Part shown: one piece after another, positions 23,987-43,502 of the stretch
Layout: every line of letters begins with the position of its first letter
Numbering within the stretch: the first letter of the stretch is position 1
From: Pelotomaculum sp. PtaU1.Bin035
GTDB lineage: Bacteria; Bacillota; Desulfotomaculia; Desulfotomaculales; Pelotomaculaceae
Direction of reading: 5' to 3'
Length of the DNA: 45,434 nucleotides
NCBI GenBank assembly: GCA_002067965.1
Contig: MVRN01000108.1
Location: 1-45,434 of the forward strand
Position numbers and translations under genes: made by a program
The notes under the pieces: generated by a model
Databases searched by the model: none
Told to the model about the DNA's origin: nothing
The model's input: the letters and a program-made list of their open reading frames with translations, nothing else

Positions 23987-25945
23987 TTATTTTTGCAATT
24001 CCGGAAGTATATTTTGATAATAATCCAGTGATTCCGGATTGGCCAAAGCATCCCTGTTCGTAACCGGCAAACCATTAACAATGTTCGTAACCGAGCTTTC
24101 CACTTTTTTCATATTCATGGTATAAGGTATATCCGGCACTTCAATTATCAGGGAAGGGACATGACGAGGCGAGGCATTGTCGCGCAAGGCTTTTTTGATC
24201 CTATTTTTTAAATCATCTGTTAGATTATATCCCGCCGCTAGTTTCACAAAAAGGATGACCCGCTGATCTTCCTGCCAGTTCTGACCTATGGCCAGGCTAT
24301 CCGCGATTTCCTCAAATTTTTCGACCTGGTTATATATTTCAGCCGTGCCTATACGCACCCCGGAAGGTTTTAAAACAGCATCGGAACGTCCATAGAAAGT
24401 TATACCTCCCGTATCCCCGTGCACCACGATGTAATCACCATGCCGCCATACGCCGGGGTATACGTTAAAGTACGCGTTTTTATACTTTTCATTTTCAGGG
24501 TCGTTCCAAAAATAAAGAGGCATGGAGGGAGCGTGAGCTTCGCAGACCAGTTCTCCCTGCTGATCAAAGACAGGCTTGCCTTGATCGTCATAGGCCAATA
24601 CTTTCATTCCCAAACCCGGCGCCTGTAATTCACCGGCGTACACCGGGATAATCGGGCTGCCTATGGCAAAGCAGCCATTTATATCCGTACCGCCGGCGAT
24701 GGAGTTAAAATGCAGGTCTGATTTAATATCCCGGTAAACGTATTCAAATCCCTCGGCTGAAAGGGCTGATCCGGTCTGGGATATTTCTTTTAATGATGAT
24801 AAGTCGTAAGCCTCTCCGGGTTTAATACCTTCGCTTTTCAAGAAATGCAGATAACTGGCGCTGGTGCCGAACACAGTGATTTTTTCATCCTGGATTAATT
24901 TCCACATGGCGCCTGAATCAGGATAATTGGGGTTGCCGTCATACAACACTATTGTGGCCCCCGCGGCCAGGGAGCTGTTTAACCAGTTCCACATCATCCA
25001 ACTGCATGTTGTTACATAGAATATTATATCTTCGCGTTTCAGATCACTATGCAATATTAGTTCTTTTAGATGATTAATAAGAATCCCGCCGGCTCCTTGC
25101 ACCATACATTTGGGCTTGCCGGTTGTCCCGGAAGAGAACATAATAAATACAGGGTGGTCAAACGGCAGTTGTTCAAATTTGATTTCGAGATTGCTTTCCC
25201 CGGAAAGGAAATCGCTGTAATGCACACCGTTGGGAACCTGGCTAAGATCTGGTTTATCTTCGGTATATGACACCACAACTACTTTCTTTAACGTGGGTAT
25301 CCCTTTGGCAATTTCCGCGGCATTGGATAATGAATCAAATTTCTTTCCTTTATAGAAATATCCGTCGGCCGTGAATAAGACTTTCGGTTCAATTTGACCA
25401 AGGCGTTCCAGTGCCGCCCTGGCGCCGATGTCGGTAGCGCAGGACGACCATATTGCTCCGATACTGGCCGTGGCCAGCATGGCAATAACTGTCTCAATTA
25501 AGTTTGGCATATAACCGGAGACACGGTCCCCCGGGGCAATTCCTGTCTCGCGCAGTGACTTGGCCAGGCGCGCCACGGTGTCGTATAGTTCCGCGTAGGT
25601 CATCCTGGCTGATTTCTGGGTTTCTCCTTTAAATATATAGGCTGTCCGGTCATCTCTAAATCTCAATAAGTTCTCCGCGAAATTCAACTTTGCGCCGCTA
25701 AACCATTTTGCGCCGGGAAGCTTCGCCGGATCGTCAACCACCGCGTCGTACCCTTGTGAAGCTTTAATCTCCCCGAATTCCCACATGGCTGCCCAGAAAT
25801 CGGACAGTTTATCAATTGACCAGTTATATAGTTGCTTATAGCTATTAATTTCAAGGCCGTACTTATTATTTACAAAACTAATAAACCTGGTTATGTTGGC
25901 TTGTTTTTTGCGTTCTTCAGTAGGTTCCCAGAGCAGTTTTTTCAT
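23987..25945 (-). CDS. Acetoacetate-CoA ligase
   Basis: Acyl-adenylate-forming enzyme making acetoacetyl-CoA from acetoacetate, CoA and ATP. The N-terminal block (MWEFGEIKASQGYDAV, GAKWFSGAKLNFAENLLRF) is diagnostic of acetoacetyl-CoA synthetases. The P-loop-like A3 motif SSGTTGKPK is at 271-279, the A8 hinge GRSDAVLKPSGVRIG, and the catalytic lysine near 613-614 in YTMNMKKVE. Its 652 residues are normal. GGAGAGG precedes ATG 25945. As last gene of operon 1 it would activate acetoacetate released by the cleavage enzyme or formed directly by carboxylation; a thiolase must be supplied from elsewhere. Confidence 0.92.
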   Translation of the reverse strand: MKKLLWEPTEERKKQANITRFISFVNNKYGLEINSYKQLYNWSIDKLSDFWAAMWEFGEIKASQGYDAVVDDPAKLPGAKWFSGAKLNFAENLLRFRDDRTAYIFKGETQKSARMTYAELYDTVARLAKSLRETGIAPGDRVSGYMPNLIETVIAMLATASIGAIWSSCATDIGARAALERLGQIEPKVLFTADGYFYKGKKFDSLSNAAEIAKGIPTLKKVVVVSYTEDKPDLSQVPNGVHYSDFLSGESNLEIKFEQLPFDHPVFIMFSSGTTGKPKCMVQGAGGILINHLKELILHSDLKREDIIFYVTTCSWMMWNWLNSSLAAGATIVLYDGNPNYPDSGAMWKLIQDEKITVFGTSASYLHFLKSEGIKPGEAYDLSSLKEISQTGSALSAEGFEYVYRDIKSDLHFNSIAGGTDINGCFAIGSPIIPVYAGELQAPGLGMKVLAYDDQGKPVFDQQGELVCEAHAPSMPLYFWNDPENEKYKNAYFNVYPGVWRHGDYIVVHGDTGGITFYGRSDAVLKPSGVRIGTAEIYNQVEKFEEIADSLAIGQNWQEDQRVILFVKLAAGYNLTDDLKNRIKKALRDNASPRHVPSLIIEVPDIPYTMNMKKVESSVTNIVNGLPVTNRDALANPESLDYYQNILPELQK

Positions 25946-26064: not shown

Positions 26065-26904
26065 TTACGCTTTCAAGCCCAGCATTTCCCTTGCCTCATC
26101 AGGAGTAGCGATCTCCCGCTGCAGTTCCCGGGCAATTCTGACGGCCCTTTCTACCAGTTGCGCGTTACTGTTTGCTAAAACACCTTTGCTGTAAAAAACA
26201 TTATCTTCAAAACCAACCCGCAGGTTACCTCCTAATAATAAGGAAAGCGTGGTCGCTGGAAGCTGGCTGCTGCCTATTCCTGTCACATTGTAAATAGACC
26301 CGGCAGGCAGTTGATCGATTAAAAACATCAGGGTTTTATGGGAGTATTTAACGGTCCCTTGCATAGCCTTGGTCATATTCAGGACAAAGTTTATATAATA
26401 CGGCTTTTTAAGCAGGTCCTGATCGATAAGGTCCTCCACATTGTGCAACATGGCTTCGTTATATACTTCCATCTCCGGCTTGATGCCGTAATCAAGCATC
26501 TTTTTAGCGGCGTACCTGATATCAGTTTTTGTATTGCTGAAGACGTTTTCTTGTCCCTTCCAATCAGCCACCGCCGTGCCCATATTTAGCGAAGCCATTT
26601 CCGGCCTGGATTCCAGGGATCGCATTCTTTCCTCCACCGACATGCCCGGCGCGCCCCCCGTTGTAGTTTGTGTTATCATGTTGCATTTTGCCCTAACTCC
26701 CGCAATTATTTCCCGGTAAATTTCAGGGTCGCCGGTCGGCCTTCCCTGCGGGTCCCGGGCGTGGATATGAGCAATCGCGGCCCCGGCGTTATAACAATCA
26801 TAAGCCGCTTGAATAATTTCACTTGGTTGTTCCGGCAAATTGGGGTTTGCCTCCTTGCCATGGAAGCCGCCGGTCAGTGACACAGTGATAATTAATTTAT
26901 CCAT
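26065..26904 (-). CDS. Beta-keto acid cleavage enzyme (BKACE/DUF849 family)
   Basis: Zinc enzyme of the family founded by 3-keto-5-aminohexanoate cleavage enzyme. Members exchange a beta-keto acid with acetyl-CoA to give acetoacetate and the matching acyl-CoA. The metal ligands are visible as H46 and H48 in AHIHARD and E232 in VGFEDNVFY. TTTGGAPGMSVEERM and NVTGIGSSQLP are also family motifs. Its 279 residues fit. It lies between the small carboxylase subunit and the ligase, which places it directly after ketone carboxylation. The acyl substrate cannot be read from the sequence. Confidence 0.9.
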   Translation of the reverse strand: MDKLIITVSLTGGFHGKEANPNLPEQPSEIIQAAYDCYNAGAAIAHIHARDPQGRPTGDPEIYREIIAGVRAKCNMITQTTTGGAPGMSVEERMRSLESRPEMASLNMGTAVADWKGQENVFSNTKTDIRYAAKKMLDYGIKPEMEVYNEAMLHNVEDLIDQDLLKKPYYINFVLNMTKAMQGTVKYSHKTLMFLIDQLPAGSIYNVTGIGSSQLPATTLSLLLGGNLRVGFEDNVFYSKGVLANSNAQLVERAVRIARELQREIATPDEAREMLGLKA

Positions 26905-26934: not shown

Positions 26935-27246
26935 TTATAGTTTTTCTTGAAGCTTCTCAGTCGTGTCTTCCACGAAATTATCCATGTCTATCTGAGTGTC
27001 CCACAATGGCGGATCGCCCTTTTGGGCAACTTCAACATCAAGCATCGTAAAGCAATTGGGGCAATAGTATTCGTAATAGACGTGCATCCCCAACGTAGGC
27101 CTTACTCCAGGCAGGCTTGCCGGGTCTTTTTCAGCCCTGGGCGCGTATTCTTTGTAGTTTTCTCTGGCATCGCATATAACATGCCCGCATTTTAAACATT
27201 TGATTTTCTTATTATTATCTATTTCCAAATATTGATGTATTTGCAT
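26935..27246 (-). CDS. Small subunit of acetone/acetophenone-carboxylase type, operon 1
   Basis: A 103-residue protein with two CxxC pairs (C17/C20 and C62/C65) plus C25, likely a zinc-binding ribbon as in the gamma subunits of acetone carboxylase. ATG 27246 has GGAGGAG seven bases upstream and shares one base with the stop of the hyuB-like gene (TAATG), so translation is probably coupled. A longer start at 27264 would overlap and has no site. Its presence marks the operon as ketone carboxylase rather than hydantoinase or 5-oxoprolinase, which lack such a subunit. Confidence 0.8.
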   Translation of the reverse strand: MQIHQYLEIDNNKKIKCLKCGHVICDARENYKEYAPRAEKDPASLPGVRPTLGMHVYYEYYCPNCFTMLDVEVAQKGDPPLWDTQIDMDNFVEDTTEKLQEKL

Positions 27247-29129
27247 TATTTCTCCTCCTTCCATACTTTACCCCTTGCCCTGCGCTCTTCTTTAACTTTA
27301 TTTCGGGCGGCTCCGGTGGCTTTATAATCTACTTCGCCACTCTTTGGATCCAGGACAACGCAGTATAACTCACGCGCGGCCCTTTCAGAAATATAACCAT
27401 CTTCCAGATCGACTTTGACCAGTGCCGGGTCGCGGTCAAGCGGATCACCAAGCCCGCCTCCCGCAACCTGGCTGTCCACGGCCCAAATGCTGCCTTCAGG
27501 GTGCGGCGCGGACGGGCTTTGCGGGGGCAATTCCTGGACATCGTCCGAATACATATTATATATATCTTCCAAGCTATATGGGACTTCACCCTTGGCGAAC
27601 CTCTCAGAAGAGTTTATGTGCCGGGCGGCAATAACTTTCACGCTGCCTGCCGGGTAACCGCCACACAGGGAAGGAGTCGTTGACACTTCGCTGCCCAGGC
27701 CGATTTGCCCAAAAACCAGCGCTGGCGTGTTATGCGCGACCTGGCAGAAAGACAACCCCGAGCCGCCCCTGTACATGCCGGGACCGCCGGAATCCTTCGA
27801 TTCTCTCCGCCACAGGTACATTACGGGATTGACCATTTCATTCGTTTCACAATCCGCTATGTTGGATTCCATGTTCATCTGAGCAGCTCCGGTATTTACC
27901 CCGTCACGGTCAACTCCGGCTCCCGTGCCGCCGGCAAAACAGTCGAAAAACATGCTTCCGGTTGTAATGCCGTATTGATTAACGCCGCCGAAGAAAGGCG
28001 CGATCATGTTCGTCGACCAGCAGGAATTAATATCCCCATGGAATTTTCTTCTTGTAAAGAACATTTTGGCAATCAATTGCGTTACGCCGGCGGAAACACT
28101 GCAACCCGGGTAAGGCGGACACATGCAGCAGGGAGAAAGCGCGCCGACATTTACCATGGAACCTTCCGGCGCAATAATTTTCACCGGCACCATGAGGCCA
28201 TAATTCAACATGGTCTCGTGAAACAACTGGCTGGCAATGGCCACGAAGCAGCTGCCGGTCGTGCCCGGGAGCATGCAGTTCAACGGCCCGGTGTTTTCCG
28301 GCGACGTCCCGGTGAAATCAATAGTTAACTCTTCACCTTTTTTTGTTAAACTAATTTCCACTTTCCAGTGCTTGTAGTCAACACAGTTATGGTCGCCATG
28401 CATAATAGTCCGCCAAGTTCCGTCCTGCAGTTCCCTAAGTTTCGCCCTGGCTAGATCCGCCGACTGGTCGATCATGCCTTGAAGGACTTCTCTCATCGTA
28501 TTTATTCCATATCTTTCCGTCATTTCATGCATCCGGGCTTTACCGATATTCAGCCCGGCAATTTTGGCGTGCACATCAAGCATGACAAAACCAGGATCGC
28601 GTACCGCTCTTTTGATCGTGTTGACAACCGGCGGGTTTAGCTTCCCACCCACGACTATTTTTTGTCCCTCAATACGAAAGCCCTCGTGCAGAAGGCTGCG
28701 GGAACTCGGAGGCATCCCGCCCGGCTCGATGGCGCCGGATTCCGGGGTGTGGGTCAGCGAACCCAGCCAGCCGTATAATTGACCCTTGTAGAACAGCGGC
28801 GCCAAAATGGCCTGGTCCGACGCGTGGATCCCTCCGATAAGCGGGTCGTTAAAAAAGAACATATCCCCTTCAAAGATCCCCGGGTGCTCCGACTGGTCCG
28901 CGATAATTTTTTGAATAAACCCTTGAGAGCCGACTGTATGCAGCATAAGCCCGCAGGCGGTAACAGACGTATATCCTTCCGCCGTGTAAGCCGCGAACAG
29001 GCACTCACCGGCTTCACAAACAACGGGCGATCCGGAAACCCTCATGACGCCCTGCCTGGCTTCGTTCATAATTGAATATATCCGGTGTGAAAGTATTTCA
29101 AATTCAATCGGACTTAATTTCCCCATCAT
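27246..29129 (-). CDS. HyuB-like carboxylase subunit, operon 1
   Basis: Subunit of the hydantoinase B/oxoprolinase family, about 627 residues. Typical blocks are DMFFFNDPLIGGIHASDQ, GAIEPGGMPPSSRSLLHEGF and the C-terminal GGGLGDPLDRDP. In acetone and acetophenone carboxylases the HyuB-like part joins the activated ketone with CO2. The frame extends to 29165, but ATG 29129 is chosen because AAGGAGG lies six bases upstream. It begins 25 bases after the hyuA-like stop. The C-terminal Lys/Glu/Arg tail ends next to the small subunit gene. Confidence 0.88.
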   Translation of the reverse strand: MMGKLSPIEFEILSHRIYSIMNEARQGVMRVSGSPVVCEAGECLFAAYTAEGYTSVTACGLMLHTVGSQGFIQKIIADQSEHPGIFEGDMFFFNDPLIGGIHASDQAILAPLFYKGQLYGWLGSLTHTPESGAIEPGGMPPSSRSLLHEGFRIEGQKIVVGGKLNPPVVNTIKRAVRDPGFVMLDVHAKIAGLNIGKARMHEMTERYGINTMREVLQGMIDQSADLARAKLRELQDGTWRTIMHGDHNCVDYKHWKVEISLTKKGEELTIDFTGTSPENTGPLNCMLPGTTGSCFVAIASQLFHETMLNYGLMVPVKIIAPEGSMVNVGALSPCCMCPPYPGCSVSAGVTQLIAKMFFTRRKFHGDINSCWSTNMIAPFFGGVNQYGITTGSMFFDCFAGGTGAGVDRDGVNTGAAQMNMESNIADCETNEMVNPVMYLWRRESKDSGGPGMYRGGSGLSFCQVAHNTPALVFGQIGLGSEVSTTPSLCGGYPAGSVKVIAARHINSSERFAKGEVPYSLEDIYNMYSDDVQELPPQSPSAPHPEGSIWAVDSQVAGGGLGDPLDRDPALVKVDLEDGYISERAARELYCVVLDPKSGEVDYKATGAARNKVKEERRARGKVWKEEK

Positions 29130-29154
29130 GTTTAACCTCCTTCTTAGTGCTTGA

Positions 29155-31245
29155 TTATCCCTCAATAACCACGTTCAGGTACTCATCCACGGTAGCAACC
29201 TGGTCCGGCAGGACAACCATGGTAGTAGTCGGCGTCTCAATAATACCCGCGCCTTCAACAACATTGCCCGCCGACAGCTTGCCATAGTCATAAATAGTCG
29301 TTTCCTTAAATTCGCCATATTCCTTGAAATAAACCTGCCTCGTGCCTTTTATCGCCCCTTTTGAACTCTTTGCCCCGAGAGCGTGCTTCGGCATCATCGG
29401 TTTTACGGAATCTATAGAAGGCCTGACCACATAAGAGAGCGATTCCACACCCGCTTCAACAAATCCGGCTCCCTCACCGTATACTTTCTGGTAATGTTCC
29501 AGGAAATCATTGATAATTTTTTCAATATCCTTTCGCGTGTAGTGACGTTTATTTTCCACAGGAATTGTTTCCATATGCACCTGACGGCCAAATTTCATGA
29601 TAATCTCCCTGTTCAGTTTAACCACGTCCCTGGTGAAGCCCATTTTTTCCATTTTCGCATACGCTCTTTCTTCCAGGTCTACGTAAATTGATGAGAGCAC
29701 TTCCGGATCGACGGGCATCTTGTGGTGCTCAAAGTAGTTAACGTAGCTTTCCACGTCTGTTAATGCGATCCCGTACGCGGAAAAAACGGAGGACTGCTGG
29801 AACATGTATATCTTGCTGAACCCGAGTTCTTTGCCGTATGATGAACCATGCAGCGGGCCGCCGCCGCCGAAGCAAAATACAACGAAATCTTTAGGATCAT
29901 GCCCTCTTTGGGTAACAACTCCCCTCAAAAGGTCGGACATATGGGCATTCTGGATCTCAAACACGCCCGCGGCTGTTTCAATGGGGTCAAGACCTACTTT
30001 TTTCCCCAGCTCTTTGTATGCTTCCAGAGCCGCGTCTTTATCCAGCTTCATCTTCCCGCCTAAAAAATAACCGGCGTCAAGGTATCCCAGTAGCAAATCG
30101 GCATCAGTCACTGTGGGCTGCGTCCCGCCGATTTGGTAGCAAACAGGGCCCGGGTCCGCGCCCGCGCTGACCGGGCCGACTCTTAACCTGCCGCTGTCGT
30201 CGGCCCAGGCTATTGTCCCGCCACCGGCGCCGATTGACCTGATCTCCACCATCGGCGTTTCAACCCGGTATCTCATAATCAGCGGCTCGTGGTGGAAAAC
30301 CGGCCGCCACTCGGCAATAACGCTCGCCTCAAAGCTGGTGCCGCCCACATCGGTCGCCACGACGTTTTTAAAACCCAGGTTTTCGGCGATGAACTTGGTC
30401 GCCAGGACGCCGCCGGCCGGGCCGGAGTTGATCGTCCCGATCGGACTCATTTCACTATAGGGCATGACGCCGCCCCACGCTTGCATGGTCAATAGTTCGT
30501 TATTGTAACCGCGGGTTTTTAACTCTTTGGCCAGGATGTCATACCACTTGATCATCGGGGGGCCGACATACGTATCAATTGCAACAGTATTCATCCGGCC
30601 GTACTCTTTGATTACCGGGGCAACTTCGGAGGAAATCTGGACATATACGTCCGGGGCCATATCCTTAATTATTTGTTTTATTCTTTGCTCGTGGGCGGGG
30701 TTGGCAAAAGACCACAAGAGACATACGGCAATAGCCTCCACGCCTTTGCCGACCAATTCCCTGACCGCGGCGACAACTTCTTCTTCATTTAGCGGTATAA
30801 CGATTTTAGCAAAGCAATCTACTCTTTCCGACACACCATAGATAAGCGACTTGGGGATAAAAGGAACCGGCTTGCGGCAGACAGCCTGATGCCTGATTTC
30901 ACTTTCTCTCAATCCGGCAACCCTGCCGCCCCCTCTTTGAATGTAAAGCGTGTCTTCGAAGCCTTTAGTGGTAATCAGACCGGTTTTTACCCCATTACGG
31001 TTAATCATGATGTTGGTGCCGATGGTCGTCCCCTGCTTAAATGAGAATGTCTGGGAAAGAACATCTTCCAACGTCATATTTAATTTTTCACAGGCGTCTT
31101 TTACGGCATTGATAACGCCGTCTTCCAATTTTTTCGGTGTTGTCGCAGACTTCCCGATAGTTGATTCTCCGTTCGAGTCAACTAATACAACGTCAGTGAA
31201 AGTCCCGCCCGTATCAACACCTATGACAAAATGCTTATTTTTCAT
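29155..31245 (-). CDS. HyuA-like ATP-dependent carboxylase subunit, operon 1
   Basis: Subunit of the hydantoinase A/oxoprolinase family (ASKHA ATPase fold), 696 residues. The phosphate loop VIGVDTGGTFTDVVLVD lies at the N-terminus, GTTIGTN at about 74, the second phosphate loop VVATDVGGTSFEASVIA in the middle, then GAGGGTIAW and TVTDADLLLGYLD. In ketone carboxylases this subunit phosphorylates the enol form or the bicarbonate. A strong GGAGG site precedes ATG 31245. It is the first gene of operon 1 and its upstream region carries one copy of the duplicated regulatory segment. Confidence 0.9.
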   Translation of the reverse strand: MKNKHFVIGVDTGGTFTDVVLVDSNGESTIGKSATTPKKLEDGVINAVKDACEKLNMTLEDVLSQTFSFKQGTTIGTNIMINRNGVKTGLITTKGFEDTLYIQRGGGRVAGLRESEIRHQAVCRKPVPFIPKSLIYGVSERVDCFAKIVIPLNEEEVVAAVRELVGKGVEAIAVCLLWSFANPAHEQRIKQIIKDMAPDVYVQISSEVAPVIKEYGRMNTVAIDTYVGPPMIKWYDILAKELKTRGYNNELLTMQAWGGVMPYSEMSPIGTINSGPAGGVLATKFIAENLGFKNVVATDVGGTSFEASVIAEWRPVFHHEPLIMRYRVETPMVEIRSIGAGGGTIAWADDSGRLRVGPVSAGADPGPVCYQIGGTQPTVTDADLLLGYLDAGYFLGGKMKLDKDAALEAYKELGKKVGLDPIETAAGVFEIQNAHMSDLLRGVVTQRGHDPKDFVVFCFGGGGPLHGSSYGKELGFSKIYMFQQSSVFSAYGIALTDVESYVNYFEHHKMPVDPEVLSSIYVDLEERAYAKMEKMGFTRDVVKLNREIIMKFGRQVHMETIPVENKRHYTRKDIEKIINDFLEHYQKVYGEGAGFVEAGVESLSYVVRPSIDSVKPMMPKHALGAKSSKGAIKGTRQVYFKEYGEFKETTIYDYGKLSAGNVVEGAGIIETPTTTMVVLPDQVATVDEYLNVVIEG

Positions 31246-31270
31246 ACAACGACCTCCTTCACATTTACAT

Positions 31271-31446
31271 TCACTGCTAAACCCCTAAACTGATCCCGCT
31301 TAACAAGCTTGGCCCTAATTTATTTCACCTCCTTTAAGAAAGATACGGACTAGTCACCCAAATCAAAATAATTTGAATTGTATAGATAATAATAATGGTT
31401 TTTGATTGCGCACAATAGCGACGCCAGGCACATAATTGCTTGTCCT
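31271..31446 (-). repeat. Regulatory direct repeat, copy 1 (before operon 1)
   Basis: A 176-base segment found again at 32488-32663 in the same orientation with five differences, all transitions. It ends about 25 bases before the hyuA-like start. It contains a near-palindrome ATTGCGCACAAT (31405-31416), an AT-rich inverted CAAA...TTTG element, and on the - strand a perfect Shine-Dalgarno AAAGGAGGTGA not followed by ATG. Confidence 0.9.
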
Positions 31447-31503
31447 TCAGGCACAAATATAGTAGACAAATAACCAGGGCAACACCTTCAGCGAATGATA
31501 ATT

Positions 31504-32400
31504 TTAGAGAAGATGTTCCTTAAACCATTCAATCGCTGCCTTGGAAGACTGATCAAAACAATTGGTATAAGCATCAAAGTGTCCCCCGGCAATAATTATC
31601 ACTGATTTGGGTTCAAGCGCTTTCTCATAAGCTTTTAAGGCAAGGTCCGTCTGCGCCTCTTCATCTTGCCGGGCAACAATCATCCGTAATGGCGTGGGTG
31701 AAATCCGGTCAATCACCCTTCCTGGAACGTATTCGAGAAACTTCTCCATTGATTCTAAAGTCATTTGATTTTTCCAGTTTGATACCTTTGACGCAGCGTC
31801 AGTAAAAAATTCATACGAGGCGGCGCTAGCTAAAAAGCAAGGCTCACCTGGCGGGCCAACTACCGGCAGGTATGCTTCAGGTCCTCCGTTATAACGTGAT
31901 TCCCGATATTGAATAAGTTGTTGAAATGTTGCCCGAAGGATATCCGTGCGCAGGAACCGCTTAGCAATTTCCCAGCAGTCCACAACGGGCACCTGTGATA
32001 CTACACACTTGACGCGCTTGTCAAAAGCAGCAACCTGGAGACAATGTCCACCACTATAGCTGGTTCCCCAAATGCCAATGTGATCGGGATCGACTTCTTT
32101 CAGGGTTCTGGCATAACTAATGGCGTTGCGGTAATCTTCAACCTGTTCTTCCGGAATTATCCGGCCGCGCGGTTCTCCATCGGATTCACCCAAATACCGG
32201 TAATCAAACACTAATACTGCGAAACCCTCCCGGCAGAATTTCTCTGCGTATTGCTCAAGGCCCATTTCTTTTGATAAACTGATGCCATGCGCCATAACAA
32301 TGGTTGGACGCGCGGCTGCATTTTCTTCCGGTGTATACAGCCAACCCCTGCATTTCAAACCAACACTTGAAAACTCGATATTTTTTCTCATAAAAACCAT
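31504..32400 (-). CDS. Alpha/beta hydrolase
   Basis: A roughly 298-residue alpha/beta-hydrolase fold protein, nearest to S15/acylaminoacyl-peptidase-like hydrolases. The oxyanion region is VMAHGISLSKEMG, the nucleophile Ser114 sits in IWGTSYSGGH, and the acid and base are Asp246 (ARQDEEA) and His274 (GGHFDAY). The frame is open to 32460; ATG 32400 is chosen because GGCGGA lies just before it, but 32391 and 32460 are possible. Its upstream region carries the second copy of the segment found before operon 1, so the two units are probably expressed together. It might release a ketone or acid from an ester, or cleave a carbon-carbon bond; the substrate is unknown. Confidence 0.82.
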   Translation of the reverse strand: MVFMRKNIEFSSVGLKCRGWLYTPEENAAARPTIVMAHGISLSKEMGLEQYAEKFCREGFAVLVFDYRYLGESDGEPRGRIIPEEQVEDYRNAISYARTLKEVDPDHIGIWGTSYSGGHCLQVAAFDKRVKCVVSQVPVVDCWEIAKRFLRTDILRATFQQLIQYRESRYNGGPEAYLPVVGPPGEPCFLASAASYEFFTDAASKVSNWKNQMTLESMEKFLEYVPGRVIDRISPTPLRMIVARQDEEAQTDLALKAYEKALEPKSVIIIAGGHFDAYTNCFDQSSKAAIEWFKEHLL

Positions 32401-32487
32401 CCATTCCGCCGCTGACTGCTGGCGGCACAAATAGTGATGAAAAGGATGTGCAGTCAACATCGAAGTAGTTGTTTACCCCTTCACATT

Positions 32488-32663
32488 TCACTGCTGAATC
32501 CCTAAACTGGTCCCGCTTAACAAGCTTGGCCCTGATTTATTTCACCTCCTTTAAGAAAGATACGGACTAGTCACCCAAATCAAAATAATTTGAATTGTAT
32601 AGATAATAATAATGGTTTTTGATTGCGCGCAATAGCGACGCCAGGCACATAATTGCTTGTCCT
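32488..32663 (-). repeat. Regulatory direct repeat, copy 2 (before the hydrolase gene)
   Basis: Second copy of the 176-base segment at 31271-31446. This copy has the exact palindrome ATTGCGCGCAAT (32622-32633) where copy 1 has one change. The near-identity over non-coding DNA points to a recent duplication or to selection for shared control. Confidence 0.9.
32629..32643 (-). promoter_or_regulatory. Possible sigma-54 -24/-12 promoter
   Basis: On the - strand the site reads TGGCGTCGCTATTGC, i.e. TGGC, seven bases, TTGC, the spacing of sigma-54 promoters (consensus TGGCAC-N5-TTGC). The copy before operon 1 (31412-31426) ends TTGT instead. It overlaps the palindrome ATTGCGCGCAAT, so it could instead be part of an operator. 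Confidence 0.3.
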
Positions 32664-32688: not shown

Positions 32689-32733
32689 AAGAAACACCGG
32701 TTCAAATGATTTAATTATGAACCGGTGTTTCTT
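32689..32733. terminator. Strong bidirectional hairpin terminator
   Basis: AAGAAACACCGGTTCA and its exact complement form a 16-bp stem with a 13-base loop; the + side continues TTTTGGGG. On the - strand it follows the pucR-like gene and so ends operon 2 before the hydrolase promoter region. Confidence 0.7.
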
Positions 32734-33087: not shown

Positions 33088-34809
33088 TTACAGATCCAAA
33101 ACTTCGAGCGCGCGCAGGGCAAAATCCAATTCAAAGCGTTCCTCGGGGTTACAGATATCAATTTTCAATAATTGAGCCATTTTTTTCAACCGGTACTTCA
33201 CCGTATTTAAATGGACAAAGCACTCTTCCGCCGCTTTTTGCTGGCTTCCACCGGAACGGATGTAACTGGTCAGAGTCGATAGAAGCTCTGCTTTCTGTGT
33301 TTCTTTAAGTAACGGGCCCAACACCCGCTGAGTTATTTCTTCAAGTATTGAACGATCCACACTTAATAAAACCCGGTATACACCCAATTCATCGAAAGCC
33401 ACCACGCTTTTTGTCTTACCCAAGCTTTGAAAGATGGCTAAACTACGCCGGAGTTCGTCATAACCTGCGCGAATATCGCTCAAGTCTCGCAGAAACCTGC
33501 TGATACCGAAAGTTAAAGTCCCGCCCGAAGCCGCGCGTAATCTTTCCTGGACTGCCTTGGCAAGAGACTTGGCATCAATACCGTTTTCCAGAAGCAATAC
33601 CACAGACCCGTTGTATACAGCCGTGTACACTCCCGGCCCAAAACCGCTTGCGGCCGTTTCCGCTGCCGCTTGCAACTCAGAAAGATTAACACTGCCGGTA
33701 CCGGCCTCCCCCAATAATATGCGGGTGACCCGCTTCAGCTCACATCCCAGCCGTCCCGCTGTTTCTTCAATTGCTTCCGCGCTGACATATTGCCCGGTTA
33801 GCAGCGGTTCTATAAATGATATGGACGGGCTGACGGCTTCAAGACACTGTTGATAATAGGCCATTGTGATGGACATGCTCGCCAGCTCTAAGGTCCGTTC
33901 GGCCTCTAACGCCAAGGGAGGAGGAGTGCCGCGCCAGAACAAGAATCCCCAGGTGGCGTTACCGCTCTTAAGCGGCGCCAGCCAGTATACGCTGCCTGGC
34001 GAATCTGAAACCCGCCCCAACGAGACAGCGCACGATTCACCTCCCAGCAACGCCCGCACCGCTCCCTGCAATGTTGACTGGCCCGCTAATTCCGGAACCA
34101 GCCGGCCTTCCTCCAAAGTCCGGATCCACGGTCCTTCTAAACGGACGTCCGGTGTGTAGGCAGCCAAAAGGCGGAGCGATTTATCCAGGAGAAATAATGG
34201 CGTATTGAAACATTCACCAAGCTTTTCAACCAGCGGCTCGAAGCCGTTCGCCAATAAGGATGGATCGGCAAACTGCCGTTGTAATTCAAGGAAACGCTCC
34301 TTCTCCTGCTGCTGATGCAAAAGATCCGTCTTTACCTTCTGAAGTTGATGAAACGTCTGCCTTTCTTGAGAATATTGCCGGCAACGCTGTACGGCTACGC
34401 TTACCTGCACTGAAAAAAACTGCATAACTTTTGTATCGGGAGGTGTCCTGTCCATACTGAAAGCAAGCAGGTATCCAAGCGATTCCCCCTTCACAGTCAA
34501 TGGAAACATTGTCACGCTTTCCAAGCCGGCATTTTTTAAAGTACTGCCCCAACCTGTCTGTGTTAAGGGTCCGCTAAACGGTTCATCCGGCAACAAATTG
34601 TCAAATTGTTCCATATCAACAACTTTATTTTTTGCCATACCGGCGGCAGCAATATTTAATTGCCCGGAGCAACCGCGAATTAAAGCGACAGCGAGAGGTA
34701 CATTGCAGGCAACACCAGTCACTTCGGCGGCCTCTCGCGCCAAATCTTTCAGCAATACTGCCTGATTCAATCTATACAGCAAATTCTCCAGCACAGTTAA
34801 ATCAAACAA
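33088..34809 (-). CDS. PucR/CdaR-family transcriptional regulator
   Basis: A roughly 573-residue regulator with a GAF-like sensor half (about 1-330) and a C-terminal PucR helix-turn-helix. The signature GGSQQKAAEECFVHLNTVKY then RLKKMAQLLKID lies near the end. Proteins of this type sense small metabolites and activate catabolic genes. The frame starts at ATG 34833, which has no ribosome binding site; TTG 34809 has GGGGGAG five bases upstream and is preferred. The site is formed by a run of ten G, prone to length change. It is the last gene of operon 2 and is the only regulator in the ketone cluster, so it likely controls one or both operons. Confidence 0.85.
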   Translation of the reverse strand: MFDLTVLENLLYRLNQAVLLKDLAREAAEVTGVACNVPLAVALIRGCSGQLNIAAAGMAKNKVVDMEQFDNLLPDEPFSGPLTQTGWGSTLKNAGLESVTMFPLTVKGESLGYLLAFSMDRTPPDTKVMQFFSVQVSVAVQRCRQYSQERQTFHQLQKVKTDLLHQQQEKERFLELQRQFADPSLLANGFEPLVEKLGECFNTPLFLLDKSLRLLAAYTPDVRLEGPWIRTLEEGRLVPELAGQSTLQGAVRALLGGESCAVSLGRVSDSPGSVYWLAPLKSGNATWGFLFWRGTPPPLALEAERTLELASMSITMAYYQQCLEAVSPSISFIEPLLTGQYVSAEAIEETAGRLGCELKRVTRILLGEAGTGSVNLSELQAAAETAASGFGPGVYTAVYNGSVVLLLENGIDAKSLAKAVQERLRAASGGTLTFGISRFLRDLSDIRAGYDELRRSLAIFQSLGKTKSVVAFDELGVYRVLLSVDRSILEEITQRVLGPLLKETQKAELLSTLTSYIRSGGSQQKAAEECFVHLNTVKYRLKKMAQLLKIDICNPEERFELDFALRALEVLDL

Positions 34810-34816
34810 TTGATCT

Positions 34817-34826
34817 CCCCCCCCCC
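34817..34826 (-). repeat. Homopolymer of ten G in the regulator start region
   Basis: Ten C in a row on the + strand (ten G in the transcript) lie between the ATG 34833 and TTG 34809 candidate starts of the pucR-like gene and supply its Shine-Dalgarno G residues. Confidence 0.9.
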
Positions 34827-34849
34827 GCGACATAAAGCCATTCTATATG

Positions 34850-36913
34850 TCATAAGCGAAAAATATTCCGGTTCGGTTGAGCATCCGGCCATCTTCCATA
34901 ATATCTTAAAATCTCTTCCGGAGGCTTATGTTTTGACCAATTTTTAATAAAATGACGGTAAGGCAAACCATTTTGACAGCGCTCAATACGCATTTCTTCC
35001 CGGCGTTTATTGCTTCCATCCAAATCCAGCTTCAAAGTCTCCGGATCATAAACTATGCAGTAGACATGCTTAGCAACCCAATTTGATATTTTACCGTTGC
35101 GCAAATCAGCAATGACGCTTGCGGGATCCCGTTCGAGCACATCTCCGTACCCCGCGCCACCGGACGAAAACCCAACAAAAATATCATCTTTGCGCAATAA
35201 TTCTGTGGGACGGTAATGCGCTGTAAAGCAATATTCTCCCGCCAGAGCGCGCTTAGCGATTAAATCGTGTATGTCATCCGGCAATTCAACGTCACCGGAA
35301 GCCCAACGCTCCAACAGGTCCGTGTTGCGGATGATAACGCCGGGGATAACCCGCGGGGGATACCCGCCGAACAAGCCCTGGGTTGTATGCAGGCGCGAGT
35401 TCTTGGAAACCAACATCAGGGCAAGATAATCGACTAATAACGGCATAATGGCAAACTGCGTGCCCAATCCCCCGCAGTATCGTCCAAAACCGCAGCTGTC
35501 GCGGGCATATTTTTGGGAAACACAGACAATGGGGTAACTATGCTCCTCATCTTCCACATTCGGTGCTTTGCCCGCCGGGCACCAAGGAAATCCCATTGCG
35601 TCCACGCCATCAGAGTCAACCCGGCCGCCTCCTCCCTCCGTATTAAGCGGGTAAGCCAGCATACTTGTTTCAGGCAGGCCCCACTGGTTCGTTCCTGAGA
35701 TAATGTAACCCGACCCCGTATTCCCCATTGAGGCCCCGACCAGATCTCGCTGGGGGCTGTCAAACATAAGTTTAGAAAAACATTGGGGCAGAAGGGACAT
35801 AACAGTGCTGCAAATAATAACTGAATTTGAAGACGCGGCTTCTTCCCGGGGTGAAAATACCGTACCCGGCGGAAAGGTAAATTCGCAGGACGCCAGCGTA
35901 CCGGTGCATCGAGGCAGGTCGTAAAAGGGCCAGCCAAACAAATAAATTGCCGCGTGCGCAACAACTGTATGCGGAAAAGCATGGTAAGAACCTTCGTGCT
36001 CGGGTGAAGTTCCCGTAAAATCAAACAATAAATTATCCCCGGCCTTTGTCAAAGTGAGCGATACACGCTGCAGGCCTTCTTCCAGGCCGATGCTGTCGGT
36101 AAATACAACAGCCCGATAGATGCCGTCATTCCAGCCGCGAATACGGTCCCGGGCACTTGATTCCGCAGTCATCAGGATATAACGGAAAAGCCCAGTTAAA
36201 AAATCCGGCCCTTTCTTTTGCACAAGTTCCTTGATACGTATTCGCACCCGGTCGCAACAACTGACCCGTGACCGTAAATCAATTAAAAATGTCCGGGGAG
36301 AGCGCGATGCGAAATTTTCCATCATACTAAGCAAATCGCGGCGGAATTTATATCGCTCGCCTAAACGGATTGGGGACAAATGCATCCCTTCGTCATAACG
36401 GCTGCGGGCCCGTACGGGCATACCACCAGGCTCTGTCGCGCCCGTCTCGTTGGTATGAGCAGTTGCCGCCGCCCAAGCGAGCAGGGTCCCATCATGGAAA
36501 ATGGGCATCATAATAATCTGGTCGGGATTATGGACATTTCCATACAACGGATCATTACAGAAAAAGAAGTCGCCTTCGTGTATGCCAACGCTGGAATCAT
36601 TCCGCAACTGGCGTATAATATATTTTACAGGCAAAACTGAACTAATGACATGCAAATATGTTCCTAAATTACAGGAAACGGGATCTCCTTCCGCCGTGCA
36701 AACCACGACACTGACATCACCCGACAAACTCATATCGGAAATACCGCATTTTACCAGCACATCCATAGCCTCAGCGAGGATTAAATTCAATTTCTCAAAA
36801 TATATCACGTAATCTACCGGCTCAATCATCTTTGCGCAATCCCGCTCGTAATCGGAAGGCTCTTCCGGCTTCAGCCACTGTAAAAGCTGCTGTTGGCCCG
36901 TAACGGAAGACAT
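34850..36913 (-). CDS. HyuB-like carboxylase subunit, operon 2
   Basis: Second HyuB-type subunit, 687 residues. It has the blocks GDFFFCNDPLYGNVHNPDQ, GATEPGGMPVRARSRYDEGM, FDFTGTSPEHEG and GGAGYGDVLERDPASV. It is clearly diverged from the operon 1 protein, with an N-terminal extension of about 40 residues (PEEPSDYERDCAKMIEPVDY) and a longer C-terminus (RHFIKNWSKHKPPEEILRYY). GGAGAG precedes ATG 36913, 33 bases after the hyuA-like stop. It would form the carboxylating part of a second ketone carboxylase with different substrate range. Confidence 0.88.
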   Translation of the reverse strand: MSSVTGQQQLLQWLKPEEPSDYERDCAKMIEPVDYVIYFEKLNLILAEAMDVLVKCGISDMSLSGDVSVVVCTAEGDPVSCNLGTYLHVISSVLPVKYIIRQLRNDSSVGIHEGDFFFCNDPLYGNVHNPDQIIMMPIFHDGTLLAWAAATAHTNETGATEPGGMPVRARSRYDEGMHLSPIRLGERYKFRRDLLSMMENFASRSPRTFLIDLRSRVSCCDRVRIRIKELVQKKGPDFLTGLFRYILMTAESSARDRIRGWNDGIYRAVVFTDSIGLEEGLQRVSLTLTKAGDNLLFDFTGTSPEHEGSYHAFPHTVVAHAAIYLFGWPFYDLPRCTGTLASCEFTFPPGTVFSPREEAASSNSVIICSTVMSLLPQCFSKLMFDSPQRDLVGASMGNTGSGYIISGTNQWGLPETSMLAYPLNTEGGGGRVDSDGVDAMGFPWCPAGKAPNVEDEEHSYPIVCVSQKYARDSCGFGRYCGGLGTQFAIMPLLVDYLALMLVSKNSRLHTTQGLFGGYPPRVIPGVIIRNTDLLERWASGDVELPDDIHDLIAKRALAGEYCFTAHYRPTELLRKDDIFVGFSSGGAGYGDVLERDPASVIADLRNGKISNWVAKHVYCIVYDPETLKLDLDGSNKRREEMRIERCQNGLPYRHFIKNWSKHKPPEEILRYYGRWPDAQPNRNIFRL

Positions 36914-36946
36914 TATCCCTCTCTCCTTTGCTTATTCATTCCCCGC

Positions 36947-39082
36947 CTAATTTATGCGCTCAATAATCCCCGCCAGGTGACAATCCAAGGTGAACCGGTG
37001 TCCTGCGGGGAGAACATAAGTCGTATAAGTATCTTCAACGATTGCCGGCCCTTCGATAATATTACTTGCCTGCAATAAATTAAAAACATAAACAGGTGTG
37101 GAGAGCCACCGGGCTTCATGTATCCAAAAAACATCCCGGCGCTCCTTCAACGCCCGTGCGGCGCTAGTTGAGCCAATAGGGTAAGCCGGTAAAACAACCG
37201 GTTCTTGCGGCAGCATCGCGTGCAATATGAATGTTTCAATCATCACCCCTCCCTCCGGATAAAGCGAGAAAGGACTGAAACTGCGGCTGTAAACATTTAC
37301 AAACGCGTTATATATCGCCTCGACATCCGCCCGCGACCCTATATTATTTCGCGGTGATACTATACGTTTCACATGGACCTGTCCGTTAAATTTCAAGTCC
37401 AGTTCCAAAATAAAATCTACCGGGCGTTCTTCCATTAAACTTAATCCAATATCCTCAAGAGCCTGAGATTCCAAATCTGACACAATCCGGTTGAAACCTG
37501 GATAATCATCTGTAAATACACCTTCCAGCGGTGATCTAAGCATAAACGGCTTTGAATGCATATAGGTTTGTCCGTACTGCAAAAAGACGCCGCCCAGCGC
37601 GCAGAAAGTAGGCGAGAAAGGAAAAGTAATAATCCGCGCGGGCTCAAGAACCCGCGCATAATCACAACAATGCGTCGGGCCCGCCCCGCCGTACGCAAAC
37701 AATGTAAATTCACGCGGATCATGTCCGCGCGTGATTGTTTCATTCAATATCGTATGGCCCATTAGTTCGTCGATGGTGCTGCGAATTTGTGACGCGGCCT
37801 CAATTACGTCAATTCCCAAAGGCCCTGCTATACGGTTACGAATGGCGCGAATAGCGCGTTCCCGGTTCAGACGACGCTTGCCGCCGGCAAAGGACTCGGG
37901 ATTAAGATAGCCAAGGACCAGGTCGGCATCGGTGATAGTCGGCTCTATTCCACCCAAATCATATGCCGCCGGCCCCGGTACGGCCCCGGCGCTTGCCGGC
38001 CCGATCTCAAGAATATTACCCTGCTCGCGATTCAACCTGACAATGGTTCCACCCCCGGCGCCGATTGAGCAAACTTCAAGCATATTCGCTCCAACCGACC
38101 AATGGTCAATAACCGGCTGCAATTTATGCGGCAAAGGAGAATTACCGGAAATAATTCCAATGTCAAAAGTGGTGCCGCCCATATCCGACGTAATTACCTT
38201 GGAACTATACTGTTTCGCTAATTGCAGGCTGCCCATCAGCCCGGACACCGGACCTCCGTTATATGTCGCAAGGGCCGTGGCGCGCCAAACATCCGCGACC
38301 CTTCCGTTATTTTGAACCATTAACAACGGCCCCCGGTAACCCCGCCGGCGCAGATGAGAAGAAATGTTCACCAACTCATCCTGCATTGTAGGCTTGAGAT
38401 AGGCATTGATAATTGTCGTCATTGTCCGCTGGTATTCACCTCTAATTGGGGCTACCTTACTGGAGAGATAAACAGGTACGGCATGCAGGCATGTTTTTGA
38501 AAACTCATTAAGTATAATTTCTTGTATCCTCAGTTCATGAACCGGATTAAGAAAAGACCACAGGAGAGACACAACAATACCCTCAACCCCCTGCGTCGCA
38601 AGCTGATTTAACAGGTCCCGCAGGTGTTCTTCATCAAGCGGGCGAATAACGTTCCCACGGGAATCAAGTCTCTCGCGAATACCAATACAGCGGCTATGCG
38701 GAATAAGCGGCACCGGCCTTTGCGCGGAAGGGTAAATTTCACGCCTCTTTTTGTTATATAATCCGTCAGTCCAATGTACGCCCTTACCGACATAAATCGC
38801 ATCCTCCGCCCCGGCAGTGGCAAGCAGCGCAAGATTTGGACCCTTGCGTTCGAGCAACTGGTTATATGCCAGGTTGGTGGCATATCGTATCTCTAATGTC
38901 ATACGCAGCAATTCTTCCAATTTTAAATTCAATTTGTCCGCACAACTTGTAACCACCGCCATAAACGGCTCGACTGGACTATGCGGTGAGGTGGGGTGCT
39001 TCGCGTTAACGATACGGTCACCAAAAACAACCAGACAATCTGTAAATGTCCCGCCAACGTCAACTTGAATACGTGCTTTCAA
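36947..39082 (-). CDS. HyuA-like ATP-dependent carboxylase subunit, operon 2
   Basis: Second canonical HyuA-type subunit, 711 residues, with intact nucleotide motifs: RIQVDVGGTFTDCLVVFGD at the N-terminus, VITSDMGGTTFDIGIISG in the middle, GAGGGTIVRLN, and TITDADLVLGYLNPESFAGG. The start is TTG 39082 with GGGGGG five bases upstream; no nearby ATG exists. It begins 17 bases after the small subunit stop. It likely supplies ATP-driven activation for the operon 2 complex. Confidence 0.88.
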   Translation of the reverse strand: MKARIQVDVGGTFTDCLVVFGDRIVNAKHPTSPHSPVEPFMAVVTSCADKLNLKLEELLRMTLEIRYATNLAYNQLLERKGPNLALLATAGAEDAIYVGKGVHWTDGLYNKKRREIYPSAQRPVPLIPHSRCIGIRERLDSRGNVIRPLDEEHLRDLLNQLATQGVEGIVVSLLWSFLNPVHELRIQEIILNEFSKTCLHAVPVYLSSKVAPIRGEYQRTMTTIINAYLKPTMQDELVNISSHLRRRGYRGPLLMVQNNGRVADVWRATALATYNGGPVSGLMGSLQLAKQYSSKVITSDMGGTTFDIGIISGNSPLPHKLQPVIDHWSVGANMLEVCSIGAGGGTIVRLNREQGNILEIGPASAGAVPGPAAYDLGGIEPTITDADLVLGYLNPESFAGGKRRLNRERAIRAIRNRIAGPLGIDVIEAASQIRSTIDELMGHTILNETITRGHDPREFTLFAYGGAGPTHCCDYARVLEPARIITFPFSPTFCALGGVFLQYGQTYMHSKPFMLRSPLEGVFTDDYPGFNRIVSDLESQALEDIGLSLMEERPVDFILELDLKFNGQVHVKRIVSPRNNIGSRADVEAIYNAFVNVYSRSFSPFSLYPEGGVMIETFILHAMLPQEPVVLPAYPIGSTSAARALKERRDVFWIHEARWLSTPVYVFNLLQASNIIEGPAIVEDTYTTYVLPAGHRFTLDCHLAGIIERIN

Positions 39083-39099
39083 TTAATCCCCCCCAACTT

Positions 39100-39435
39100 T
39101 TATCCGTGTAAACCATGTTTTAACTTCAGGCTTTCTAAATTCAACTCAATGTCATGCGTAATAGGGTGGCCGGGCGGCAGGCACTCATTTTCTAACATTA
39201 CTCCGCATTGCGGGCAATAAAACTCGACAATACGGCACCAGTCCGGGTCGGGGGCAAAAGTATAAGGTCGACCCTCAACTACCGGTTGATAGACGGCCAA
39301 CGGGTGCCGCGCCCGGATCAGACATCCTTCTTTATAATTTAATCTGGCGCTAATCAATTCGTGGCCGCAACGGTTGCAGCACCACAACTCCTTCACCAGA
39401 TCAATATCAAGACTCTCGGTTATCCTTACTTTCAT
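39100..39435 (-). CDS. Small subunit of acetone/acetophenone-carboxylase type, operon 2
   Basis: A 111-residue protein related to the operon 1 small subunit: CCNRCGHELISARLNYKEG aligns with CLKCGHVICDARENYKEY, and FYCPQCGVML with YYCPNCFTML. The CxxC pairs are C20/C23 and C74/C77, so a zinc ribbon is likely. GGGAGGTGG precedes ATG 39435, and the start overlaps the stop of the upstream gene (ATGA), indicating translational coupling. A role as the gamma-type structural or regulatory subunit is inferred from family and context. Confidence 0.8.
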   Translation of the reverse strand: MKVRITESLDIDLVKELWCCNRCGHELISARLNYKEGCLIRARHPLAVYQPVVEGRPYTFAPDPDWCRIVEFYCPQCGVMLENECLPPGHPITHDIELNLESLKLKHGLHG

Positions 39436-41384: not shown

Positions 41385-41908
41385 GCCGGGGTGCCTCCTC
41401 ACAAATTATCACAATAACCATGTATAATAAAATAATCAATAAGTAAATTATCTTAATCTTCAATTAATCCAGACTAGACATGGGCTTTATTAGAGCCGCC
41501 CATCCACTTATGAGAGTATACTGATTTAGATTATTAACAGCATATCCGGTAATTATTAATACACTTATTCTTTAAAATAATTCAAACTCCTTCCTAAATA
41601 GAAGAAAATTTATTCATTAATTTCTGATAATTAGCGCAATAATACCCTTTAATCCGCGCCCCAGTAACCAGGATACCCATATCATAACACAACTCATTTC
41701 TGAGCGGATATGCCAGGGGCGCCGCGGCTCGATCCCAGCAGCCTGCCATTTTCTCTTAAAGAAGCCTCATTATCATTACTGATCACTGTGGATTTGCCGC
41801 CTCCGGCCTATACAGCCGAGTGTTTATAATTTTTCGCGAATATTTAAAACCAAATTGAAAAAAATAATAACCGTATAAACAAATAAACCCATGGAAGGAG
41901 AGTTGTCT
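41385..41908. other. Divergent intergenic region
   Basis: About 520 AT-rich bases between the divergent operon 2 and coat genes, with no recognisable gene. It must hold both promoters. On the - strand TTGATT and TATTGT spaced by 17 bases lie close to the operon 2 start, a tentative promoter. ATGGGC/GCCCAT at about 41478-41501 can form a small hairpin. Confidence 0.4.
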
Positions 41909-42094
41909 GTGGCACTATTAAATCAGCAGGAACTTCAGAACCTGAGACACCTTATCGGCTCCCACGAAACAGCTTCCCAAAAATTGCGGGCGTTCTCTCA
42001 GCAAGCTACCGACCCACAAGTAAAACAAATGTTCGAGAAGTCCGCGCAAGACGCCCAAAACGCCAAGCAAAAATTAATGTCATTTTTAAGCTGA
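41909..42094 (+). CDS. Small spore coat-associated protein
   Basis: A 61-residue helical protein: LLNQQELQNLRHLIGSHE, then QQATDPQVKQMFEKSAQDAQ. The pattern is that of small CotF-related coat proteins of clostridia, which usually occur in pairs with a CotF-domain protein, as here. GTG 41909 is chosen because GGAGAG lies six bases upstream; ATG 41891 would have no site. It is 13 bases from the next gene and likely co-transcribed, presumably late in sporulation in the mother cell. Confidence 0.7.
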   Translation: MALLNQQELQNLRHLIGSHETASQKLRAFSQQATDPQVKQMFEKSAQDAQNAKQKLMSFLS

Positions 42095-42107
42095 AGGAGG
42101 CAGGAAC

Positions 42108-42383
42108 ATGCGGGAAAAAGATATGGTAAATGACGTTTTATCCATGATAAACAGCAGTATTACCGGATATGCCAATGTCATCACTCAAACATCCAATCAG
42201 AACTTAAGACAAACTTTTCAGCAGATGAGAGACCATGATGAAAAGTTCCAGTACGATCTTTACCGGCTCGCGGAGCAAAAGGGATATTACCAGCCGGCTC
42301 AACAAGCTGACGCGAGGGACGTCCAGCAAGTTAAATCTCAATTCGGCGGCGCAACAGGCGCCAGAGGTGAAATGAGGCTTTAA
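42108..42383 (+). CDS. Spore coat protein, CotF family
   Basis: A 91-residue protein with the Coat_F signature: VLSMINSSITGYANVITQTS, LRQTFQQMRDHDEKFQYDLY, EQKGYYQPAQQ. AAGGAGG lies seven bases before ATG 42108. Members are deposited on the spore surface. Its pairing with the small upstream gene is typical. The C-terminal Gly/Ala/Arg tail is short and unstructured. Confidence 0.88.
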   Translation: MREKDMVNDVLSMINSSITGYANVITQTSNQNLRQTFQQMRDHDEKFQYDLYRLAEQKGYYQPAQQADARDVQQVKSQFGGATGARGEMRL

Positions 42384-42414
42384 AAAATAACTTTACTAAA
42401 GCTAAAATTTGGTA

Positions 42415-42443
42415 TTGACACCACATTAATAACTTGCTAATAT
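42415..42443 (+). promoter_or_regulatory. Sigma-A type promoter
   Basis: TTGACA (42415-42420), a 17-base spacer and TAATAT (42438-42443) make a near-consensus promoter, expected to start transcription near 42450, in front of the DUF1659/DUF2922/YvrJ genes. Confidence 0.75.
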
Positions 42444-42458
42444 AATATAGAACATAAG

Positions 42459-42517
42459 TTTGGGGCAGGGCAAATGGTGGAACATTTTACCTGCCCCAAA
42501 ATGTTTGCCTTTGCCCT
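42459..42517 (+). promoter_or_regulatory. Structured 5' leader with alternative pairings
   Basis: TTTGGGGCAGG (42459-42469) pairs perfectly with CCTGCCCCAAA (42490-42500). AGGGCAAA (42467-42474) can instead pair with TTTGCCCT (42510-42517). The two structures share bases and exclude each other. The leader lies between the promoter and the gene at 42584. Confidence 0.5.
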
Positions 42518-42583
42518 CCTCAATTAAATAAACGACGGCTGAAGGCGCGCAATATAAGCCTTCCCCGGGAGGAGGTGAACCAT

Positions 42584-42808: not shown

Positions 42809-43026
42809 AGTTAAATTTGTGCTTGGTAAACGCAACATAAAAAATCAATATTCTTTAGAGGAAAGGAGAAAGGTTTCCAGCAGTCACAATCCGGTTTGGG
42901 CATTCCGGCAAACGGAAGCGCCGCGCAACAATTGGAACTTGTGATACTGCCTCCCGTGGAGTCGGGCGGGAGAAATATATTCGAATTTAATAGGTTCGGT
43001 TATATTTGAAGAAACCGGTTAATTGA

Positions 43027-43263: not shown

Positions 43264-43328
43264 TCCGGGCGTTCATATAAAGGTGGGGGCGAGCCCCCCG
43301 CCGCAGTAACTGAGAAAGGGTGATTTGA

Positions 43329-43496: not shown

Positions 43497-43502
43497 TTTA
43501 AA

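Follow-up and report, generated by a model that had tools for sequence, protein, structure and literature searches.

Ketone metabolism is poorly understood in Desulfotomaculum-type bacteria. In the window, which is the whole 45,434-nt stretch of Pelotomaculum sp. PtaU1.Bin035 DNA that was analysed, two non-coding segments that are nearly identical, beyond what chance would give, stand before two different genes, one heading a carboxylase operon and the other coding for an alpha/beta hydrolase. The locus raises the question of whether the second segment brings the hydrolase under the control of the carboxylase operon, and how it came to lie there. On balance, the sequence favours an account in which the hydrolase entered between a PucR-type gene and the carboxylase operon, accompanied by a second promoter-leader copy, such that the two units are induced together. 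Promoter-leader duplication with gene insertion is an event of a kind already known, and this locus offers a clear case in which a gene gains regulation by a duplicated neighbour promoter-leader, and a related genome still shows the earlier arrangement.

The carboxylase locus

The gene order is now PucR, copy 2 of the segment, hydrolase, copy 1 and hyuA, and all the relevant genes lie on the minus strand:

33088..34833, minus strand: PucR-type regulator (HTH_30, GGDEF-like; Pfam), last gene of an upstream carboxylase-like cluster
32689..32733, no strand: terminator-like perfect inverted repeat of 16 bp with a 13-nt loop, between PucR and copy 2 (sequence)
31504..32391, minus strand: alpha/beta hydrolase (Pfam Peptidase_S15/Abhydrolase_1; N-terminal alignment); the reading frame is open to 32460, and homologues start at 32391
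29155..31245, minus strand: HyuA-type carboxylase subunit (Pfam, NCBIfam)
27246..29165, minus strand: HyuB-type carboxylase subunit (Pfam, NCBIfam)
26935..27264, minus strand: acetone-carboxylase gamma-like subunit (PF08882)
26065..26904, minus strand: beta-keto acid cleavage enzyme (PF05853)
23987..25945, minus strand: acetoacetate-CoA ligase (TIGR01217, above cut-off)

Judged by its gene content, the operon to which the segment belongs is acetone/acetophenone-carboxylase-like. Like the acetone (acxRABC) and acetophenone (apcABCDE) carboxylase operons, it has HyuA- and HyuB-type subunits, a gamma-like subunit, a CoA ligase and an adjoining regulator gene. Unlike them, it includes a beta-keto acid cleavage enzyme and an acetoacetate-CoA ligase, and its regulator is of the PucR type instead of AcxR. 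The carboxylase subunits score below the NCBIfam equivalog cut-offs (456 against 1500 for ApcC, 251 against 1500 for ApcD), and given that all the carboxylase family matches fall far under their cut-offs, these matches do not fix the substrate. In view of what such enzyme families do, the operon fits a pathway in which a methyl ketone would be carboxylated to a beta-keto acid, the acyl part of that acid transferred to CoA so that acetoacetate is released, and the acetoacetate activated.

The PucR-type gene ends a second carboxylase-like cluster at 33088-41402, with two HyuA-type proteins, one HyuB-type and one gamma-like. The HyuA-type protein at 39432-41402 is without a recognisable N-terminal hydantoinase domain. 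The 2.2 kb upstream of this cluster (41403-43636) are gene-poor, and a decayed paralogous gene there was ruled out, given that a translated search found no similarity to the fetched sequences.

Extent and identity of the duplicated segment

The earlier note described two 176-bp segments that differ at five positions, all of them transitions, one before the carboxylase operon and the other before the hydrolase gene. Pairwise comparison confirms this description, and both segments lie upstream of minus-strand genes:

31271..31446, minus strand: copy 1, with the promoter and 5' leader of the carboxylase operon, in the ancestral position (97% identity to copy 2; leader half aligns to the leader of a related genome)
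32488..32663, minus strand: copy 2, duplicate of the promoter-leader ahead of the hydrolase gene (repeat identity; poorer alignment to the related leader, 77 against 95)

The copies are identical at 171 of 176 positions, at an offset of exactly 1217, and differ (copy 1/copy 2, numbered along copy 1) at 31279 A/G, 31282 C/T, 31293 A/G, 31317 A/G and 31412 A/G. The same repeat was also detected as a 192-nt pair at 95%. Likeness runs, in decayed form, beyond the ends of the segment. On the side of the carboxylase ribosome site there is a 5-nt indel, followed by AATGTGAAGG-GGT, and on the upstream side about 57 nt are also alike. The anchored alignment score of this upstream flank was matched by 1 of 3550 composition-matched controls, or by 10 of 4558 when the first 15 nt were skipped, and constitutes moderate evidence, given that the test was devised after the sequence had been seen. 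If the likeness of the flank is real, the duplicated unit would originally have been about 245 bases long, with margins that have since decayed. The longest exact stretch between the copies is a central one of 94 bp. On the same condition, a core that stayed unchanged while its margins decayed would be better explained by selection or gene conversion than by mere youth.

A single leader in a related genome

Another member of the order, with a complete genome (G102, locus L030), has a HyuA that is 87% identical to that of the window. There the order is a PucR-type gene, one leader, hyuA, hyuB, the gamma subunit and a CoA ligase. The hydrolase is absent from this locus, and no homologue was found in the whole genome at E<=1e-20. 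The L030 leader aligns to copy 1 with a score of 95 (shuffle maximum 46) and to copy 2 with a score of 77 (shuffle maximum 43). It retains both the true ribosome site of hyuA and an orphan ribosome site further upstream. At the place where copy 1 and L030 have the hyuA ribosome site, copy 2 terminates in GTGAAGGGGT:

31250..31259, minus strand: true hyuA ribosome site (AAGGAGGTCG), just 3' of copy 1 (sequence; kept in L030)
32475..32482, minus strand: degraded hyuA ribosome site (GAAGGGGT), at the 3' edge of copy 2 (sequence comparison)

The better alignment of copy 1, together with the degraded ribosome site of copy 2, argues that the leader belongs to hyuA. By this comparison copy 2 is the derived copy, and copy 1 stands in the ancestral place, before a gene whose orthologue in one other genome has the leader as well. 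Searches with HyuA covered 113 genomes of the class, 113 of the order, 398 sampled from the phylum and 200 relatives, and only G102 gave a comparable leader, so that conservation of the leader rests on a single comparison. In a further genome (G131), a HyuA that is 52% identical is broken off at a contig end.

The operon of the related genome ends in a PaaK-like CoA ligase (L030 4378-5727), not in a beta-keto acid cleavage enzyme and an acetoacetate-CoA ligase. Comparison of this ligase with the enzymes of the window suggests two routes for the carboxylation product.

The conserved leader and its orphan Shine-Dalgarno sequence

Between the genera, it is the predicted transcribed leader that is conserved rather than the promoter: the leader half of the segment is kept in L030, and the promoter half is not. 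The conserved part contains AAATTATTTTRATT, in which an 11-base match to the anti-Shine-Dalgarno sequence has no start codon behind it, and also AGCTTGTTAA.CGG. The orphan sites, from a survey of AAGGAGG sites, are:

31325..31335, minus strand: orphan Shine-Dalgarno AAAGGAGGTGA, no start codon, copy 1
32542..32552, minus strand: orphan Shine-Dalgarno, copy 2

In the window and related sequences together, 34 of 42 AAGGAGG sites have a start codon behind them, and the only leader positions with an orphan site are those of copy 1, copy 2 and L030. An upstream ORF behind the orphan site was ruled out by eye, as no ATG, GTG or TTG stands at a usable distance and no frame is common with L030. A structured leader RNA or riboswitch was rejected as well (z-scores of 1.2, 0.4 and 0.4 against shuffles, and no Rfam match).

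STAB-SD sites stabilise mRNA in Bacillus (PMC4113751). The orphan sequence is a strong Shine-Dalgarno in a leader, without a start codon, and by analogy it is most simply read as an mRNA stabiliser of the STAB-SD type, with AAAGGAGG as the leader sequence that would be the candidate stabiliser. In the cry3A leader of Bacillus thuringiensis, as here, a strong start-less ribosome-binding sequence lies upstream of the real ribosome site; the orphan site here lies some 75 nt ahead of the true ribosome site, as read from the sequence. The leader ahead of the biotin-carboxylase genes of another genome (G015) showed no significant homology to the conserved leader (p 0.17-0.40). It has two SD-like sequences in succession.

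Candidate promoter elements and regulators

Three kinds of candidate control element can be read in the promoter half of the segment:

32622..32633, no strand: exact palindrome ATTGCGCGCAAT, copy 2, with its centre some 40 bp ahead of the inferred start, should TACAAT be the -10 (sequence; spacing inferred)
31405..31416, no strand: the same site with one base changed, ATTGCGCACAAT (ATTGTGCGCAAT on the minus strand), copy 1 (sequence)
32629..32643, minus strand: sigma-54-type core TGGC-GTCGCTA-TTGC, copy 2 (core scan)
31412..31426, minus strand: the same sigma-54-type element with TTGT as its -12 end, copy 1 (sequence)
32594..32599, minus strand: TACAAT, -10-like hexamer, copy 2 (read from sequence)
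31377..31382, minus strand: TACAAT, -10-like hexamer (5/6) with no good -35, copy 1 (read from sequence)

The palindrome is indeed exact in copy 2 with one change in copy 1, as had been claimed. The search elsewhere in the genome that had been proposed found ATTGYGCGCAAT only in the two copies. The window has 14 exact 12-bp palindromes, and its palindromic nature by itself is therefore unremarkable. The palindrome overlaps the -12 element of the sigma-54-type core, and a single base (31412/32629) distinguishes the copies in both readings. This difference inside a candidate control site bears on whether ketone carboxylation is under sigma-54 or PucR control. The idea that the copies form a natural pair for locating the regulator site fares less well: they are too alike to serve as independent evidence and have little locating power. 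In a consensus scan, the sense strand of the segment showed no sigma-70 site, which fits expectation for an activated promoter. Copy 1, with its weaker palindrome and -12 element and its decayed upstream flank, may be a dying promoter.

Tentatively, the palindrome could be the operator of the neighbouring PucR-type protein, which would act as a class II activator of both units. The PucR-type gene adjoins the operon here and in the related genome, and the site is confined to the two copies, with its centre near -40 from TACAAT. Several PucR-type proteins bind inverted repeats of 17-24 bp, and the one bound by GabR lies immediately upstream of -35 (PMC7652997). Like the local activators GabR, AdeR and PutR, the regulator gene adjoins the candidate target operon, and an inverted repeat lies near -40. 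Unlike the sites of those activators, the repeat here is a candidate read from sequence, is shorter (12 bp only, and altered in copy 1) and lies in the non-conserved part of the segment, absent from the related genome. The promoter core has no significant similarity to the related leader, and the PucR-type proteins of the window and of L030 share 20% identity. The site does not recur at other promoters of the same regulator: the region before the second carboxylase cluster, which includes PucR itself, has no significant shared motif (p 0.52), and the other genome with this PucR (G015, 74% over the C-terminus) has biotin-carboxylase neighbours and lacks the site. Given that the palindrome is not conserved and overlaps the sigma-54-type core, its link to PucR is no more than tentative, and sigma-54 stands as a real alternative.

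In G015, the gene with this PucR C-terminus lies upstream of genes for a biotin carboxyl carrier and a biotin carboxylase (L060 1978-4501), and the regulator type may thus be linked with different carboxylation systems.

It is somewhat unlikely that the promoter is instead sigma-54-dependent and the palindrome a mere overlap of the -12 element with neighbouring bases, such that copy 2 (TGGC-N7-TTGC) would be active for the hydrolase and the carboxylase in one transcript and copy 1 (TTGT) would be weakened. The GG/GC elements at the right spacing are exact in copy 2, broken in copy 1 and absent in the L030 leader, the last of which counts against this reading. The core of copy 2 is on the sense strand, where about 0.012 would be expected by chance in 176 nt, given 18 exact TGGC-N7-TTGC cores in 136.6 kb counted on both strands; five such cores occur in the window, however, and one alone is weak evidence. 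The genome has a sigma-54 gene (RpoN; PF04552, 202 bits), and a hydrolase homologue in another genome is flanked by two sigma-54 activator genes and preceded by such a core. Sigma-54-type activators accompany the acetone carboxylase operons of Cupriavidus and Xanthobacter, and in Cupriavidus the operon has such a core, TGGCATGNNNNTTGC (PMC2864759). Against this, a Pfam scan recognised no activator gene with a sigma-54 domain among the window genes that it covered, and the adjoining regulator is of the PucR type.

Probable shared control of the hydrolase and the carboxylase

Because the leader is recognisable before the orthologous carboxylase in another genus, shared control is the natural reading, and the comparison makes it likely that the hydrolase and the carboxylase are controlled together. 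The earlier note had proposed a duplicated regulatory segment and, from it, a hydrolase that belongs to the same pathway. The first part stands, given the leader before the orthologous carboxylase; the second gets no support from the related genome, where neither the hydrolase at this locus nor a homologue at E<=1e-20 was found.

In the favoured account, the hydrolase gene and a second copy of the region would have been inserted between the PucR-type gene and the carboxylase operon, and each copy would drive its own unit from an activator-dependent promoter. The activator would be either PucR at the palindrome or a sigma-54 activator, and each transcript would begin with the leader that bears the strong start-less ribosome-binding sequence. 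No terminator-like structure turned up between the hydrolase and copy 1, so the transcript from copy 2 could include hyuA. By both means the hydrolase and the carboxylase would be induced together.

It is unlikely that copy 2 is a passive relic that came with the rearrangement that brought the hydrolase and has no shared regulatory role. The decayed flanks, the clustering of the copy differences at one end and a start-site element that belongs to the hydrolase itself are all consistent with a relic. However, the identity of the central 94 bases between flanks that seem much more diverged suggests selection or gene conversion, and once copy 2 is set aside, no other promoter for the hydrolase can be seen after the terminator-like dyad that separates PucR from copy 2. 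An assembly artefact or a dispersed mobile repeat is highly improbable: the genome (G000, 2.54 Mb) is a draft of 128 contigs with 3% contamination, but the 94-bp exact stretch is shorter than usual final assembly word sizes and read lengths, terminal repeats are absent, a DNA search found no copy in 100 relatives, and a mobile repeat is ruled out by there being just two copies in the genome itself (second copy at E=3.5e-81) and no match in viral contigs.

An extension of the favoured account, and an improbable one, would make the duplicated unit a portable expression module, in which a regulated promoter and a conserved start-less stabiliser leader were copied to bring an acquired hydrolase into a ketone regulon, with the hydrolase itself arriving with an undescribed start-site hairpin that recurs ahead of unrelated genes in Clostridia.

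The hydrolase and its start-site element

Alignment with its homologues makes 32391, rather than 32460, most likely to be the start of the hydrolase. Three other genomes encode homologues that are 36-40% identical along the full length of the protein; their contexts differ, and none of them adjoins a carboxylase of this type. A scan of named genomes with the hydrolase found distant relatives only. One homologue (G074, L044 2838-10081) lies between the two sigma-54 activator genes mentioned above, beside a flavoprotein gene, and the TGGC-N7-TTGC core upstream of it is at 4819.

A hairpin precedes the hydrolase start:

32389..32443, minus strand: hydrolase hairpin/start-site element (TATTTGTGCCG..CGGAATGGA..ATG), about 55 nt (sequence comparison, stem covariation)

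In the window, the element reads TATTTGTGCCGCC-AGCAGTCA-GCGGCGGAATGGATGGTTTTTATG. The element (TTTCATTACTATTTGTGCCGNN..NNCGGAATGGAGATTNTTATG) is found 8-9 bases before the ATG of unrelated genes on plasmids, phage-like contigs and chromosomes of Clostridia, with members in the window and in L061, L063, L064, L065, L066, L067, L110, L135 and L143. In a Roseburia plasmid, it precedes a gene that is alpha/beta-hydrolase-like by sequence, and in a Subdoligranulum plasmid a gene for a 598-residue protein that resembles aspartyl-tRNA synthetase. Compensatory changes on both sides affect 3 of the 6 stem pairs, for a covariation score of 0.25 against 0.04 in shuffles, and no Rfam family scored above its cut-off. 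The hairpin is possibly an undescribed translation-initiation element, and two members with a very short frame after the ATG indicate that a gene does not have to begin there in every case. The hydrolase therefore appears to have arrived with a translation start of its own and to be transcribed from copy 2.

Four members, and probably a fifth, have an IS110-family transposase immediately upstream of the element. The possibility that the hairpin is an IS110 end, raised by the Roseburia match, was ruled out by members without IS110, which point to a start-site element with IS110 elements often nearby. In L061 (981-2255), L063, L065 and L135, the non-coding end of the IS110 element repeats parts of the hairpin element (CACTTATTTGTGCTTG...GATTATTATG), as if the hairpin were its target.
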